Source of the DNA: Halococcus salifodinae DSM 8989
GTDB lineage: Archaea; Halobacteriota; Halobacteria; Halobacteriales; Halococcaceae
Assembly (NCBI RefSeq): GCF_000336935.1
Contig: NZ_AOME01000013.1
Span: forward strand, 158,708-215,749
Reading direction: 5' to 3'
DNA length: 57,042 nt
Both the position numbers and the translations under genes were made by a program. The notes under the pieces were generated by a model. That model saw nothing but the letters and a program-made list of their open reading frames with translations. It ran no database searches and was not told the DNA's origin. Below are positions 6,159-52,428 of this stretch, in pieces. Each line of letters starts with the position of its first letter. Within the stretch, counting starts at the first letter, position 1.

Positions 6159-7115
6159 ATGCCTCTGGACTCGCGACGTCTGTTGGAAGAGAGCCTGCCC
6201 GTCGGGGGACTGCTGTTCGCGTGGTACGTGCTGAGTGCGCTCGTCGCGGCGCTCGCAAACGGATCGTTTCTCGGAACGCTTTCGATCGGCTTTCAAATCG
6301 TCGGGTCCGCCACCGCGGTGGTGTTCGTCGTCGTCCGTGGCATCGCTATCGCCCGCGAAACTCGTCCGCTCCGCTTGTCGGGTGATCTCCGCGAGCTTCT
6401 CGACGAGAGTACCGTGGTCGCAGTGCCCGTCCTCGTGTGGGTCGCTCTCGGAACCCTCGTCGCGCTACCGTTCGGTCTTTTCAGGTTCGGGACCAGTGTT
6501 CCGACACTCGTCGCCGCCTTCGTACAGACAGCGATCGCGACCACGGGACTGTACGTCGTGGTCCGTGTCGTGCCGGTTCTCCGCTCGGGAGTCGGATCGG
6601 GCAGAACCGCCGCTCTCGGCGACGACTGCCGCGTGCGGTGGCGGTGCGGTCTGCGGGCCTGGCGGATGAAGGGCGAGGCGCGCGAACGAGGCCGCAGGCC
6701 GAGTGAGCAGCGAACACCGGAGCACGCTTCGCGTGCTCCGAGCTCCCGTTCGCTTCGCTCACGGGAACGAAGGGAGCGCGCGGCGAGGGCTTCGGCGGTG
6801 CTGTGCGGTGCAGTTGCGGTCCTCGGTGGATCGAGGGCGAGGCCCGCTTCGCGGGCCGAGGGCTCGGACGGTGCTGTGCGGTTGCGGAAAGGGGTAGCAA
6901 CTGTACCGCGAGTGAGCGGGGCGAACGAGCGGCAGTTTTTGGTCCAGATTTTTACGAGGAGTGGTCCCCGCAGCGAGTCGGCGAAGCCGACGAGCGAGGA
7001 GACCCGACGTGGTTCGAAAGACGCCGGAGGCGTCTTTCGTCATGCCGAGACGGCGGAGCCGTCTCGTAACAAAGTAAAAAGGTGGGTGTCTAGTAGTTAT
7101 CGTAGACAGTTTTGA
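6159..7115 (+). CDS. Four-helix membrane protein whose frame runs into a dispersed repeat
   Basis: Residues 1-145 look genuine, with four hydrophobic segments at about 14-33, 40-62, 85-106 and 112-138 and short charged loops (ARETRPLRLSGDLRELLDES). From about residue 165 (base 6652) the frame enters repeat copy 1 and continues as Arg/Ser/Glu-rich low-complexity sequence. It stops only at 7115, overlapping the 3' end of xacF by 26 nt. The natural C-terminus probably lay before 6652 and was lost or overwritten, or the repeat is now translated. No family is recognised for the membrane part. The ATG sits 77 nt from pheA, divergent to it. Confidence 0.5.
   Translation: MPLDSRRLLEESLPVGGLLFAWYVLSALVAALANGSFLGTLSIGFQIVGSATAVVFVVVRGIAIARETRPLRLSGDLRELLDESTVVAVPVLVWVALGTLVALPFGLFRFGTSVPTLVAAFVQTAIATTGLYVVVRVVPVLRSGVGSGRTAALGDDCRVRWRCGLRAWRMKGEARERGRRPSEQRTPEHASRAPSSRSLRSRERRERAARASAVLCGAVAVLGGSRARPASRAEGSDGAVRLRKGVATVPRVSGANERQFLVQIFTRSGPRSESAKPTSEETRRGSKDAGGVFRHAETAEPSRNKVKRWVSSSYRRQF
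6652..7084 (+). repeat. Hairpin-mosaic intergenic element, copy 1
   Basis: This copy shares six conserved blocks with the inverted copy at 51160-51503: A 6652-6677 (26/26 identical), B 6785-6801 (17/17), C 6821-6841 (21/21), D 6858-6881 (23/24), E 6936-6961 (25/26) and F 7072-7084 (13/13). Between the blocks lie segments unlike those of copy 2. They contain perfect hairpins with 3-nt loops: 6718-6740 (10-bp stem, TTC), 6841-6857 (7 bp, TTC), 6977-6991 (6 bp, GAA), 7015-7039 (11 bp, GGA) and 7046-7066 (9 bp, GGA). The element fills the space before the 3' end of xacF and after the membrane-protein domain of the opposing gene. Confidence 0.85.
7072..7084 (-). terminator. T-rich block after the xacF stop (repeat block F)
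   Basis: Read on the minus strand, CACCTTTTTACTT begins 5 nt after the TAG of xacF. A T5 tract shortly after a stop codon is the usual form of an archaeal intrinsic termination signal. It is followed on the same strand by the hairpin at 7046-7066. The same 13 bases follow carS at 51160-51172. Confidence 0.6.
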
Positions 7116-8553
7116 TGATGGTGAAGTAGTCCATCCCCTCCTCGCCCTGTTCGCGGTAGGTCTCGCTGGAAGAGGCGTTCATGCCGCCGAAGGGAACGTG
7201 GAGTTCGAGGCCGGTGGTGGCTTCGTTGACCTTCACGACGCCGAAGTCGACCTCGTCGACGAAGCGGTTGGCCTGAGTGTGGTCGTCGGTGACGATCCCG
7301 GCCGCCAGTCCGAACTCGACATCGTTGGCGAGGTCGATCGCTTCCTCGAAATCGCTCACGGTCATGATCCCCACGAAGGGGCCGAACACCTCCTCCTGCA
7401 TTACGGTCGCATCGGAGTCCAAGCCGGTGAGGATCGTCGGCTCGACGAAGTAGCCGTTCTCGTACTCGTCGCCGTCGGGTTGGCCGCCGCCGTACTCGAC
7501 GGTCGCGCCTTCGTCTTTGGCGGTCTCGACGTCGTCGAGGGTGCCCTCGATTTCGCCCTCGTTCGCCTGGGGGCCCATGTCCGCCCCGTCGAGGGCGGCC
7601 CCGATCTCGATCGATTTCGCATAGTCGACGAGCGCGTCGACGAACTCGTCGTGGACCGACTCGTGGACGATCACCCGCTCGGTCGCGGTGCAGGCTTGTC
7701 CTGTGACGCCGAACGCACCGCCGCCAACGATTTGTGCGGCCTCCTCGACGTCGGCGCTCTCGGTCACGACGGTGGGGTTTTTCGAGCCGAGCTCGGTCTG
7801 GACGCGCTTGTGGGCGTCAGTAGCCTGCTCGTAGATCATATCGCCGACCGAGCGACTCCCCGTGAAGGAGACGGCGTCGACCTCGTCGTGTTCGACGATC
7901 GGCTGGCCGACCTCCTCGCCGCCACCGGTCAGGACGTTCACGACACCATCGGGGGCATCCACGGCGTCGGCGGCCTCGGCGAGACATTCGGTGACCTTCA
8001 GAAAGACCGTCGGCGCGTCCTGTGAGAGCTTACAGACCACGGTGTTGCCCGTCGCGAGCGCGGGAGCCATCTTCCACGAGGGGATTGCGATGGGGTAGTT
8101 CCACGGGACGATCAGGCCCGCGACGCCCATCGGCTCGCGGACGGTGTAGAGGTTCTGTCCGGTGGCGCTCGGATTGCTGGCCTCGCCGGCGTAGTCCATG
8201 GCCTTCTCGGCGTAGTAGTAGAAGATGTTGATCGCGCGGCCGACCTCGCCGCCGGCCTCGCCGAGCGCCTTGCCCTCCTCGCGCGCGAGCGTCTCGGTGA
8301 GTTCCTCGCGTCGGTCGTCCATCCGCTTGGCTGTCTCGCGCAGGAGTTTGCCGCGAGCGGGTCCCGGGGTCTCCGCCCACGCGTCCCGGGCGGCTGCGGC
8401 AGCCTCGATGGCACCACGGGCGTCGGCGCTGCTCGAATCCTGACACTCCGCCACCGTCTCGTCGGTGTTCGCGGGGTTTTCGACCGCGAACGTCTCGCCG
8501 GTTTCGGAGGCGCGCCACTCCCCGTCAACGTAGTTCTCGTAGGTGTCTGCCAT
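7090..8553 (-). CDS. xacF: Aldehyde dehydrogenase, probably alpha-ketoglutarate semialdehyde dehydrogenase (XacF-like)
   Basis: The product has 487 aa and the length and motifs of the NAD(P)+-dependent aldehyde dehydrogenase superfamily: VPWNYPIAIPSWKMAPALAT, the general-base Glu in QTELGSKNPTVV, the catalytic Cys in VTGQACTATERVIVH, and the late motif EEVFGPFVGIM. The GQxCTAT(S/E)R form and the tail SYREQG-like ETYREQGEEGMDYFTIIK match the dioxopentanoate/alpha-ketoglutarate semialdehyde branch. This is the last step of oxidative D-xylose/L-arabinose degradation in haloarchaea. Divergent xacE begins 113 nt away, which supports that role. Exact substrate is inferred, not proven. Confidence 0.85.
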   Translation of the reverse strand: MADTYENYVDGEWRASETGETFAVENPANTDETVAECQDSSSADARGAIEAAAAARDAWAETPGPARGKLLRETAKRMDDRREELTETLAREEGKALGEAGGEVGRAINIFYYYAEKAMDYAGEASNPSATGQNLYTVREPMGVAGLIVPWNYPIAIPSWKMAPALATGNTVVCKLSQDAPTVFLKVTECLAEAADAVDAPDGVVNVLTGGGEEVGQPIVEHDEVDAVSFTGSRSVGDMIYEQATDAHKRVQTELGSKNPTVVTESADVEEAAQIVGGGAFGVTGQACTATERVIVHESVHDEFVDALVDYAKSIEIGAALDGADMGPQANEGEIEGTLDDVETAKDEGATVEYGGGQPDGDEYENGYFVEPTILTGLDSDATVMQEEVFGPFVGIMTVSDFEEAIDLANDVEFGLAAGIVTDDHTQANRFVDEVDFGVVKVNEATTGLELHVPFGGMNASSSETYREQGEEGMDYFTIIKTVYDNY

Positions 8554-50613: not shown

Positions 50614-51159
50614 ATGGACCCTGTCGCAGTCATCGCCGTCGCGTTCTGGGCGATGCTGCCGGCGTACGTTCCGAACAACGCCGCCGTTCTCGTCGGCGGT
50701 GGTCGTCCCATCGACAACGGGCGGACGTGGCGCGGTGCGCGCGTGCTCGGCGACGGCAAGACGTGGCGCGGGACCGCCGCTGGCGCGATCGCGGGTATCG
50801 CGCTCGCACTCGTGCTGAATGCCGTCGAGCCCACCGTTTCGGGTGCGACCGGCCTCCCGCTTCCGACGTTTCCCCCCATCGCGATGGTCACACTGCCGAT
50901 CGGCGCGATGGTCGGCGACGCGGCCGCTTCCTTCCTCAAGCGTCGCACCGGCCGCGAACGCGGCGCGGCGTTCCCCGGCGTCGACCAGTTCGATTTCGTC
51001 CTCGGCGCGCTCCTCCTGACGGCGCTCGGCGCGTTCGAGTGGTTTACTGCGACGTTCACCCTCCCCGTTCTCCTGGTCGTCCTCGTCGCCACCCCGTTGC
51101 TCCACGTCGGGACCAACGTGATCGCCTATCGGGTGGGGCTGAAAAGTGAGCCGTGGTAG
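50614..51159 (+). CDS. carS: CDP-archaeol synthase
   Basis: The product has 181 aa: CTP:2,3-di-O-geranylgeranylglyceryl-phosphate cytidyltransferase, which activates the archaeal lipid precursor at the membrane. Markers are MLPAYVPNNAAVLVGGGRPI, LGDGKTWRGTAAGAIAGI, MVGDAAASFLKRRTGRERGA, PGVDQFDFVLGALLL and TPLLHVGTNVIAYRVGLK. About five hydrophobic helices are present. The stop codon is directly followed by block F of repeat copy 2. Confidence 0.95.
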   Translation: MDPVAVIAVAFWAMLPAYVPNNAAVLVGGGRPIDNGRTWRGARVLGDGKTWRGTAAGAIAGIALALVLNAVEPTVSGATGLPLPTFPPIAMVTLPIGAMVGDAAASFLKRRTGRERGAAFPGVDQFDFVLGALLLTALGAFEWFTATFTLPVLLVVLVATPLLHVGTNVIAYRVGLKSEPW

Positions 51160-51172
51160 CACCTTTTTACTT
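51160..51172 (+). terminator. T-rich block after the carS stop (repeat block F)
   Basis: CACCTTTTTACTT begins at the base right after the carS TAG. It is identical to the block after the xacF stop at 7072-7084 (minus strand). A T5 run after a stop codon fits archaeal intrinsic termination. Confidence 0.6.
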
Positions 51173-51503
51173 CGTCGGGTGCGCTCGCTTCGCTCACGGG
51201 TCGCTCCACTCCCCGTTCGCATCGAGGCGCTCCCGTCGGTCGCGCCTCGCTTCGCTCGCACACCCCTCCTCGTAAAAATCTGCACCAAAAACCCCCGCTC
51301 ACTCTCTTCGGTCGTTCGCGGTGAACCGTGCTCGCTTCGCTCGCACGGACGGTCCCGCCGTCCGCTCCGCACAGCACCGCCCGAGCCCTCGGTCGCTCCG
51401 CTCCCTCGCCCTCGATCCACCGAGGGGCCGCAGCCGCACTCCAACCGCACCGCCGAAGCCCTCGCTCACTTCGTTCGCTCGCCCTTCATCCGCCAGGCCC
51501 GCA
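51160..51503 (-). repeat. Hairpin-mosaic intergenic element, copy 2
   Basis: This is the inverted counterpart of 6652-7084: A 51478-51503, B 51447-51463, C 51405-51425, D 51367-51390, E 51265-51290, F 51160-51172. Variable segments differ from copy 1. They contain hairpins 51346-51364 (7-bp stem, 5-nt loop) and 51326-51348 (6-bp stem), and several purine mirror repeats of the GAGCGAAGCGAG type. The element fills the 375-nt gap between the 3' ends of carS and map. Confidence 0.85.
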
Positions 51504-51534: not shown

Positions 51535-52428
51535 TCAGCGCTCGGTCGTCACTTCACAGCCGTCCTCGGTCACGATGATGGTGTGCTCTTTCTGACTCAC
51601 GAGCGCGCCATCGTCCTCTTTCAGCACCGGGTAGCCGTGAACCACGTTCTGGCGTTCGAGCCGGCGGAGCGCCATCTCGGGACGATCGACGTCGAGCCAT
51701 CGGGTGGCGAAGGGGAGCGTGCGGAACTCCTCGGTGATCTGATCGAGCGCCTTGCGCGCGTCCCGGTTTCTGACCGACTGTTCGCGGTCGAGCGCGTAGA
51801 TCTGCTCGTCACCGCCCTCCGAGACCTTCCCGCCACCGTCGGTGGCGAACGGCTCGACGGCGACCACGTCGCCCGCTTCGAGTTCGACGCTCTGGCTCAC
51901 CGCGCGATTCGGGATGTTCGGCGGGGTGTGCTGGTCCCACCGGCCGAGCCCGTGGCCGGTGAGGTTGACGACGGGGTTGTAGCCGTAGTCGTCGATGACC
52001 TCCTCGATCCGTGCACCGATCTCGCCGGTCTCGACACCCGGTTCGACGAGGTCGAGCGCGGCGTCGAGCGCGGCTTCGGGCGCTTCCGCGAGGTCGTCGT
52101 GGCCCGAGAGATCGACCGTAATAGCGGTGTCGGCGAGCCAGCCGTCGACATGTACCCCGATGTCGAGGTTGATCATCTCCTCGCCGAACGTGGCGTCGTC
52201 GTCGGCGCTCGGCGTGGCGTGGGCGGCCTCCTCGTCGATCGAAATGTTCACTGGAAACGCGGGCTCGCCACCCAGCTCGCGGGTACGCTCCTCGGCCCAC
52301 TCCGCAACGTCGAGATGGCTCGTGCCGACCTCGACGCGCTCGGCGGCTTCCTCGCGCACTTGAGCGAGGATTTCGCCTGCCTCACGGTGTTTCTCGTACT
52401 GCTCCGACGAGAGGTCCACGTCGCTCAT
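51535..52428 (-). CDS. map: Methionine aminopeptidase (type II, archaeal)
   Basis: The product has 297 aa from ATG 52428 (MSDVDLSSEQYEKHREAGEI). It removes initiator methionine in the cytoplasm. Dimetal ligands are visible in the expected order: HATPSADDDATFGEEMINLD, then DIGVHVDGWLADTAITVDLS (two Asp), NLTGHGLGRWDQHTPPNIPN (His), VVAVEPFATDGGGKVSEGGD (Glu in EPFAT) and QKEHTIIVTEDGCEVTTE (Glu). A type II insertion with helices around 170-230 is present. Confidence 0.95.
   Translation of the reverse strand: MSDVDLSSEQYEKHREAGEILAQVREEAAERVEVGTSHLDVAEWAEERTRELGGEPAFPVNISIDEEAAHATPSADDDATFGEEMINLDIGVHVDGWLADTAITVDLSGHDDLAEAPEAALDAALDLVEPGVETGEIGARIEEVIDDYGYNPVVNLTGHGLGRWDQHTPPNIPNRAVSQSVELEAGDVVAVEPFATDGGGKVSEGGDEQIYALDREQSVRNRDARKALDQITEEFRTLPFATRWLDVDRPEMALRRLERQNVVHGYPVLKEDDGALVSQKEHTIIVTEDGCEVTTER

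Follow-up and report, generated by a model that had tools for sequence, protein, structure and literature searches.

In the bidirectional intrinsic terminators of bacteria, one hairpin serves both strands and each strand has its own T run. The BOX elements of Streptococcus pneumoniae combine a modular frame with variable repeated modules, and we know of no stop-codon anchoring for them. The REP and BIME elements of bacteria carry a GTAG or CGTC tag at one end (PMC3733652). In Haloferax volcanii, T stretches are the intergenic terminators, and T5C stopped 95% of transcripts in an in vivo reporter (PMC7237163).

Here we describe a modular repeat present in two copies in a 57,042-nucleotide stretch of Halococcus salifodinae DSM 8989 DNA (hereafter the window, meaning the whole stretch analysed). 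Judged by its sequence, this element appears to function as a terminator in both directions, and it belongs to none of the repeat families tested. Like bacterial bidirectional intrinsic terminators, it has a T run on each strand flanking one hairpin; unlike them, its T runs on both strands precede the stem formed by its last two blocks (E and F), and only the hairpin before block E, followed by T5, keeps the bacterial order. It differs from BOX in sequence and in domain of life. With REP/BIME it shares extragenic palindromic repeats, a position at 3' ends, a preference for tandem and convergent junctions and a composite structure (PMC3733652, PMC2817692), but it has no conserved palindrome, tag or required Y1/RAYT transposase, is oriented by one gene and has T runs built in. 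As in Haloferax (PMC7237163), a T run follows closely behind the stop codon; here, in contrast, the T runs are set in a repeated frame, on both strands, inside a covarying stem that holds exchangeable hairpins and with an extra A/B module. Literature searches on haloarchaeal mosaic, palindromic and REP repeats, with subscription journals mostly outside their coverage, returned no description of the element.

Anatomy of the two window copies

The initial annotation had reported six blocks (A to F) in the same order in two mutually inverted copies, and we confirmed this. Nothing else in the window is similar: at 0–1 mismatch, no further match to A, C, D, E or F turned up outside the two copies. 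When re-measured, identity between the copies was 26/26 for A, 19/19 for B (previously 17/17), 22/22 for C (previously 21/21), 25/26 for D, 26/27 for E and 13/13 for F. The segments between blocks are unlike in both length and sequence, also as reported. The features are as follows, with flanking genes named by eye from their sequence.

Copy 1
6159..7115, +: A-side gene, a membrane-protein ORF that has lost its stop and runs through the element
6652..6677, +: block A (TGCGGGCCTGGCGGATGAAGGGCGAG), forming the 5' arm of A/B, with GAAG in the basal stem
6678..6782, +: exchangeable A-B segment with several hairpins, e.g. GGAGCACGC-TTC-GCGTGCTCC
at 6748, +: flipped tandem-GA hairpin GTTCGC-TTC-GCTCAC in the A-B segment
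6783..6801, +: block B (GCGAGGGCTTCGGCGGTGC), forming the 3' arm of A/B, with CTTC in the basal stem
6821..6842, +: block C, forming the 5' arm of C/D (the duplicate module), with CGAG in the basal stem
6841..6857, +: hairpin GGCCCGC-TTC-GCGGGCC within C/D
6856..6881, +: block D, forming the 3' arm of C/D, with CTCG in the basal stem
6906..6932, +: D-E hairpin CCGCGAGTGAGC-GGG-GCGAACGAGCGG with stacked tandem G.A pairs, immediately before the T run
6936..6953, +: block E, T5-GGTCCAGA-T5; CCA at 6944-6946 is one E/F stem arm
6978..6992, +: E-F hairpin GTCGGC-GAA-GCCGAC
7015..7039, +: E-F hairpin CGAAAGACGCC-GGA-GGCGTCTTTCG
7046..7066, +: E-F hairpin CGAGACGGC-GGA-GCCGTCTCG
7072..7085, +: block F (AAGTAAAAAGGTGG); TGG at 7083-7085 is the other E/F stem arm
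7090..8553, -: F-side gene, aldehyde dehydrogenase (ALDH) family protein

Copy 2
50614..51159, +: F-side gene, carS-like (CDP-archaeol synthase)
51159..51172, -: block F (AAGTAAAAAGGTGC), whose TGC pairs with the GCA of E; shares one base with the complement of the CarS stop (its first letter)
51274..51291, -: block E, T5-GGTGCAGA-T5; GCA at 51281-51283
51367..51392, -: block D
51404..51425, -: block C
51447..51465, -: block B
51478..51503, -: block A
51535..52428, -: A-side gene, M24 aminopeptidase-like, convergent

Both copies had been placed between two converging gene ends. This is correct for copy 2, which lies between two converging stop codons, and its A-side gene is replaced in four species by a different gene on the opposite strand. 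Copy 1 is not cleanly between two stops, since the + strand ORF 6159-7115 crosses the element and overlaps the ALDH 3' end. This ORF has TGC at the site of an in-frame TGA in the sister species G001 and G005 (GGCGACGACTGC vs GGTGACGACTGA) and thus reads through the entire copy 1 element. Block F of copy 1 provides a T5 run on the - strand, about 10 nt past the ALDH stop (7090-7092). The perfect hairpins of copy 1 with TTC, GAA or GGA loops are as first described; the “purine mirror repeats” noted in copy 2 are present, and are in fact hairpins with tandem G.A in the stem.

Paired modules and the strand that folds

The six-block anatomy needs two corrections. C+D repeats the stem module formed by A+B, and blocks E and F pair as a single stem, each supplying one arm. 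The module consensus is GG(C/T)GGAT-[GAAG]-GGCGA-hairpin-GAGGG-[CTTC]-GGCGGTG, in which the bracketed four bases pair. In A/B-type modules this basal stem was GAAG/CTTC in 154 instances and CGAG/CTCG, with two pairs altered on both sides, in 15; 6 further instances require a G.U pair, and 39 other pattern hits that are not fully paired are probably mostly wrong search stops. E has the general form T5-N8-T5 and F the form A5-NN-NNN, and the second T5 of E and the A5 of F are arms of one hairpin-bearing stem. We compared the three spacer bases of E that precede its inner two nucleotides with the three bases after the A run of F, and found complementary triplets in 178/196 pairs (random re-pairing: mean 97, maximum 112), a count that is unbiased and that, like all covariation counts given here, takes related copies as separate. 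Seven kinds occur (CCA/TGG, GTA/TAC, GAA/TTC, CGA/TCG, GGA/TCC, GCA/TGC and CAA/TTG), and complementarity holds in 49/55 spacers other than CCA. The window copies themselves differ by a compensatory C-G to G-C change (GGTCCAGA with GGTGG vs GGTGCAGA with GGTGC). A pair count gave a covariation of 0.266 against 0.073 for shuffled input, with 94% paired against 50–64% when the arms were slid, its input being preselected for complementary triplets and the count biased for those columns. Folding of copy 2 recovered the E/F stem unaided; RNAalifold found no pairs in the core alignment, probably because its middle is too variable, and there the stem was set by hand. These results demonstrate a pairing constraint on A/B, C/D and E/F.

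The exchangeable segments carry hairpins with tandem G.A pairs, such as GCGAAC-GAA-GTGAGC, GCGACC-GCA-GGGAGC and GGGAGC-GGA-GCGACC, in which GA is constant while adjacent pairs vary. The 116 elements hold 274 of them on the strand that reads from A to F, where shuffles give 5.5, against 21 on the opposite strand (shuffles 0.8). A wider search yielded 359 GA hairpins, of which 324 have triloops, 269 GNA loops and 8 TNC loops, mostly closed by C-G. Plain Watson-Crick hairpins of at least 8 bp show no strand preference (GNA 43, TNC 39), and single mismatches within GNA hairpins are G.T in 22 cases and A.C in 2. The strand bias of the G.A pairs, the GNA loops and the excess of G.T over A.C show that one strand, A-to-F, is the one that folds. 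In DNA, GNA loops closed by G-C pairs are known to give mini-hairpins of extraordinary stability (PMC4686876), a hint that the folding molecule is single-stranded DNA; RNA would also be compatible.

At orthologous sites the frame is retained, and hairpins, E spacer types and extra modules are exchanged. Each slot keeps a hairpin but not its sequence, indicating that stems are swapped between copies, and the exchangeable modules proposed in the initial annotation are supported. In L014 and L073 (E spacer AGTCCA/GATCCA) and in L015, L020 and L083 (E spacer CATG), a long hairpin module interrupts the T5-N8-T5 spacer at the same point, while L005 carries the uninterrupted form; E itself can therefore be an insertion target. 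Beside intact tRNA genes, partial tRNA-like pieces (TTTGAACC ... GGTTCAAA) enclose tandem-GA hairpins in L004, L060, L084 and L105, and such pieces also surround tandem-GA hairpins in other genera (L240, L244, L252, L257, L261); the arrangement suggests the entry of hairpin modules into tRNA duplicates. In another genus, GA hairpins of this kind sit in a repeated frame of a different sort, GCGAGGGATGAG-ATCGCAGG-hairpin-CGAGAAACGCAGTCGGTTGGGGAGG-GGCCTGCGGTCGCGGTGCGG (L269-L275 in G078; L281 and L288 in G071).

Distribution and anchoring to gene ends

Exact matches to a 16-base core of block A (GGCGGATGAAGGGCGA) number 25 across the 4.2 Mb genome, far above chance, and the reversed pattern has none. 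The repeated extragenic family that had been proposed is supported. Each of ten Halococcus genomes, including H. morrhuae and H. thailandensis, contains 19–49 exact copies; collection by exact 16-mer misses diverged copies. In a sample of the order, 35/293 genomes had any match, 10 of these 35 being Halococcus, and the others have 1–3 copies except for one 62%-complete genome with 17. This genome (G175) belongs to another family, its genus mates have 0–3 copies and its contigs are possibly mis-binned. A model of the E-hairpin-F core (E≤0.001) matched 65/79 haloarchaeal genomes sampled, with at least 45–60 matches in each Halococcus genome and 0–34 elsewhere; in the window, only the two known copies gave strong scores. 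The core is thus haloarchaea-wide, and the A/B(/C/D) frame, found mostly in Halococcus, is an addition made there upstream of the core. The hairpin GCGAACGNAGTGAGC alone is present in 68/79 haloarchaeal genomes, and for isolated GA hairpins in other genera we found no clear gene orientation. Upstream of block A, on the same strand, copies such as L010, L019 and L020 have G-rich low-complexity runs (GCGGTTGCGGGGCGGT repeats) of variable length.

We used a crude codon-score gene finder trained on the window to assign gene strands around the 116 copies. The F-side gene ends into the element in 89/116 (P = 6e-9), and the A-side gene does so in 61/116, which is random. Convergent junctions (48 copies) and tandem ones in which the F-side gene ends at the element (40 copies) occur with similar frequency; in several exceptions to the F-side orientation, a tRNA gene ends at F (by eye). 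The proposed specificity for convergent junctions thus fails, and we reject a convergence-specific element: the element marks the 3' end of one gene. Placement without regard to gene orientation, which had been named as a refutation, was not what we saw, the orientation being strong and set by one gene rather than two.

The element is kept at the orthologous 3' ends of osmC (10/10), dnaJ (9/10), pcn (8/10, with one more E/F only), the L017 gene (8/9 readable), carS (7/9 readable), mscS (5/10), phoU (4/10), psmB (3/9) and adh (2/10), where we take pcn to encode PCNA and dnaJ to encode DnaJ, these and the names osmC, carS and those of other F-side genes being assigned by eye from protein ends. 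At carS and pcn the opposite neighbour is convergent in some species and on the opposite strand in others, and the element persists. At pcn, osmC, dnaJ and carS, it stays with the F-side gene even where the opposite neighbour differs or is flipped. Sites without the element (ALDH in G003, G004, G007 and G009; carS in G002 and G006) differ in synteny.

The distance from the F-side stop codon to the T run on the gene's strand has a median of 8 nt and is at most 30 nt in 80/86 cases; by comparison, T4+ lies within 30 nt of the stop in only 4/56 genes of this one window. T-N8-T is present in 44/48 convergent and 33/40 tandem copies, and T tracts on both strands were correctly noted at the outset. 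Anchoring of the element to F-side stop codons is thereby shown.

Probable termination and competing readings

A terminator or 3'-end role, as originally suggested, is likely from the sequence. We lean, by a little over even, towards a modular gene-end element that acts as a two-way T-tract transcription terminator or insulator with swappable hairpins, a reading that draws on the established role of T stretches as intergenic terminators in Haloferax (PMC7237163). The transcript of the F-side gene would be ended by the T4-T6 run a median of 8 nt past its stop codon. In the other direction, the GC-rich D-E hairpin followed by T5-N8-T5 would stop oncoming transcripts from the A side, which may be convergent mRNA or, in tandem arrangements, antisense or spurious transcription. 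For the A/B(/C/D) stem module, our guess is 3'-UTR protection or insulation. Two findings speak against the terminator reading: as a signature, GNA triloops point to DNA and not to RNA, and tandem copies keep the A-to-F terminator without an obvious client gene. Furthermore, efficient termination at the T runs would leave few RNAs with a complete E/F stem, so that the covariation of this stem needs another reason; read-through RNA, single-stranded DNA and hairpin-templated repair are candidates.

The element could instead be a non-autonomous mobile repeat (REP-, MITE- or BOX-like) moved via single-stranded DNA, with gene ends as a tolerated or preferred target. Many copies with a common frame, strand-specific and stable hairpins of DNA type, modules nested at one E point (L014/L073; L015/L020/L083) and CCTGGYG repeats flanking the inner, upstream insert as a possible target-site duplication (ends mismatched in L008, L044 and L136) would all suit this idea. 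It is nevertheless an unlikely one: sites at core genes are stable across the genus, no whole-element target-site duplication or terminal inverted repeats were found, and the F side adjoins stop codons far too precisely for drift. The REP-associated, IS200-type Y1 transposase (PF01797) is absent from 3/10 genomes (G001, G005 and G008), which hold 49, 26 and 21 element copies, 49 being the most of any. REP/BIME kinship, also proposed initially, fares no better. Placement is extragenic and mostly downstream of genes, as in REP/BIME; GTAG occurs 123 times and CGTC 122 times in 33,086 bases of element (about 129 expected per 4-mer at equal frequencies), and we found no family-wide short (20–40 bp) palindrome sequence, the frame being conserved and the stems differing between copies and orthologous sites. 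With no tag, no transposase in the richest genome and no fixed palindrome, the element is not of REP type. An IS remnant is likewise disfavoured, no universal Y1 transposase being present and no coding form or transposase having been noticed in the 116 copies read, of which a few long spacings were partly inspected; A-B inserts reach 312 bases, and one long spacing contains an RNase P RNA gene.

A second possibility, which we hold to be doubtful, is that the element folds as RNA in the 3' UTR and there serves to protect or process the ends of mRNAs, as an exonuclease block or a guide for aCPSF1 cleavage, with termination secondary. The A-to-F strand folds better than shuffles (z -4.5 for copy 1, -3.2 for copy 2), G.T exceeds A.C among mismatches by 22:2, and the A/B and E/F stems covary; but the other strand of copy 1 folds about equally well against shuffles (z -5.6), the better-folding strand is antisense to the anchored gene, the tandem copies (40/116) have no annotated gene that transcribes it, and the loops are GNA triloops, not GNRA or UUCG tetraloops. 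A known RNA family was rejected, because Rfam at gathering score returned only tRNA and RNase P hits and none on the element. An independent ncRNA gene starting near A was also rejected: in the copies inspected, we saw by eye no TATA-like promoter upstream of A, only G-rich GCGGTTGCGG-type repeats.

Equally doubtful is a broader proposal, an undescribed, order-wide gene-end class with tandem sheared G.A helices and GNA triloops on one strand, interchangeable hairpins that move between copies and a covarying T5/A5 stem that anchors each element to the stop codons of particular genes, whose members would be single-stranded DNA insulators and not RNA terminators. Less probable still, the hairpins may be DNA-level sites (cruciforms, protein or topoisomerase binding sites, barriers to forks or transcription) that shield neighbouring transcription units from each other's supercoiling. 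The extraordinary stability of GNA minihairpins with G-C closure (PMC4686876) and an A-to-F strand that is G-rich in 115/116 and purine-rich in 114/116 copies are in keeping with such sites, which leave unexplained the T runs at a median of 8 nt from stops and the T-N8-T form of E. Least probable is a mutational by-product, in which gene conversion and quasi-palindrome repair homogenise old terminators and the hairpins have no function: hairpin-templated repair can yield perfect arms, and stems are swapped wholesale at orthologous sites, but repair would remove both the tandem G.A pairs retained while flanking pairs change and the purine-purine mismatches retained at one fixed place in the E/F stem.

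How archaeal transcripts end between closely packed genes is still being worked out. Dozens of Halococcus genes end in one modular element type, with a fixed frame, swappable hairpins and T runs. At the ends of core genes (PCNA, DnaJ, carS and others, by eye), this repeated element sets candidate T-run stop signals on both strands, and it is kept there despite rearrangements. The covarying stem, together with the G.A hairpins confined largely to one strand, amounts to a clear code that can be tested, and the many copies are a natural collection of hairpins in which to ask if selection at archaeal gene ends acts on RNA structure or on single-stranded DNA structure.
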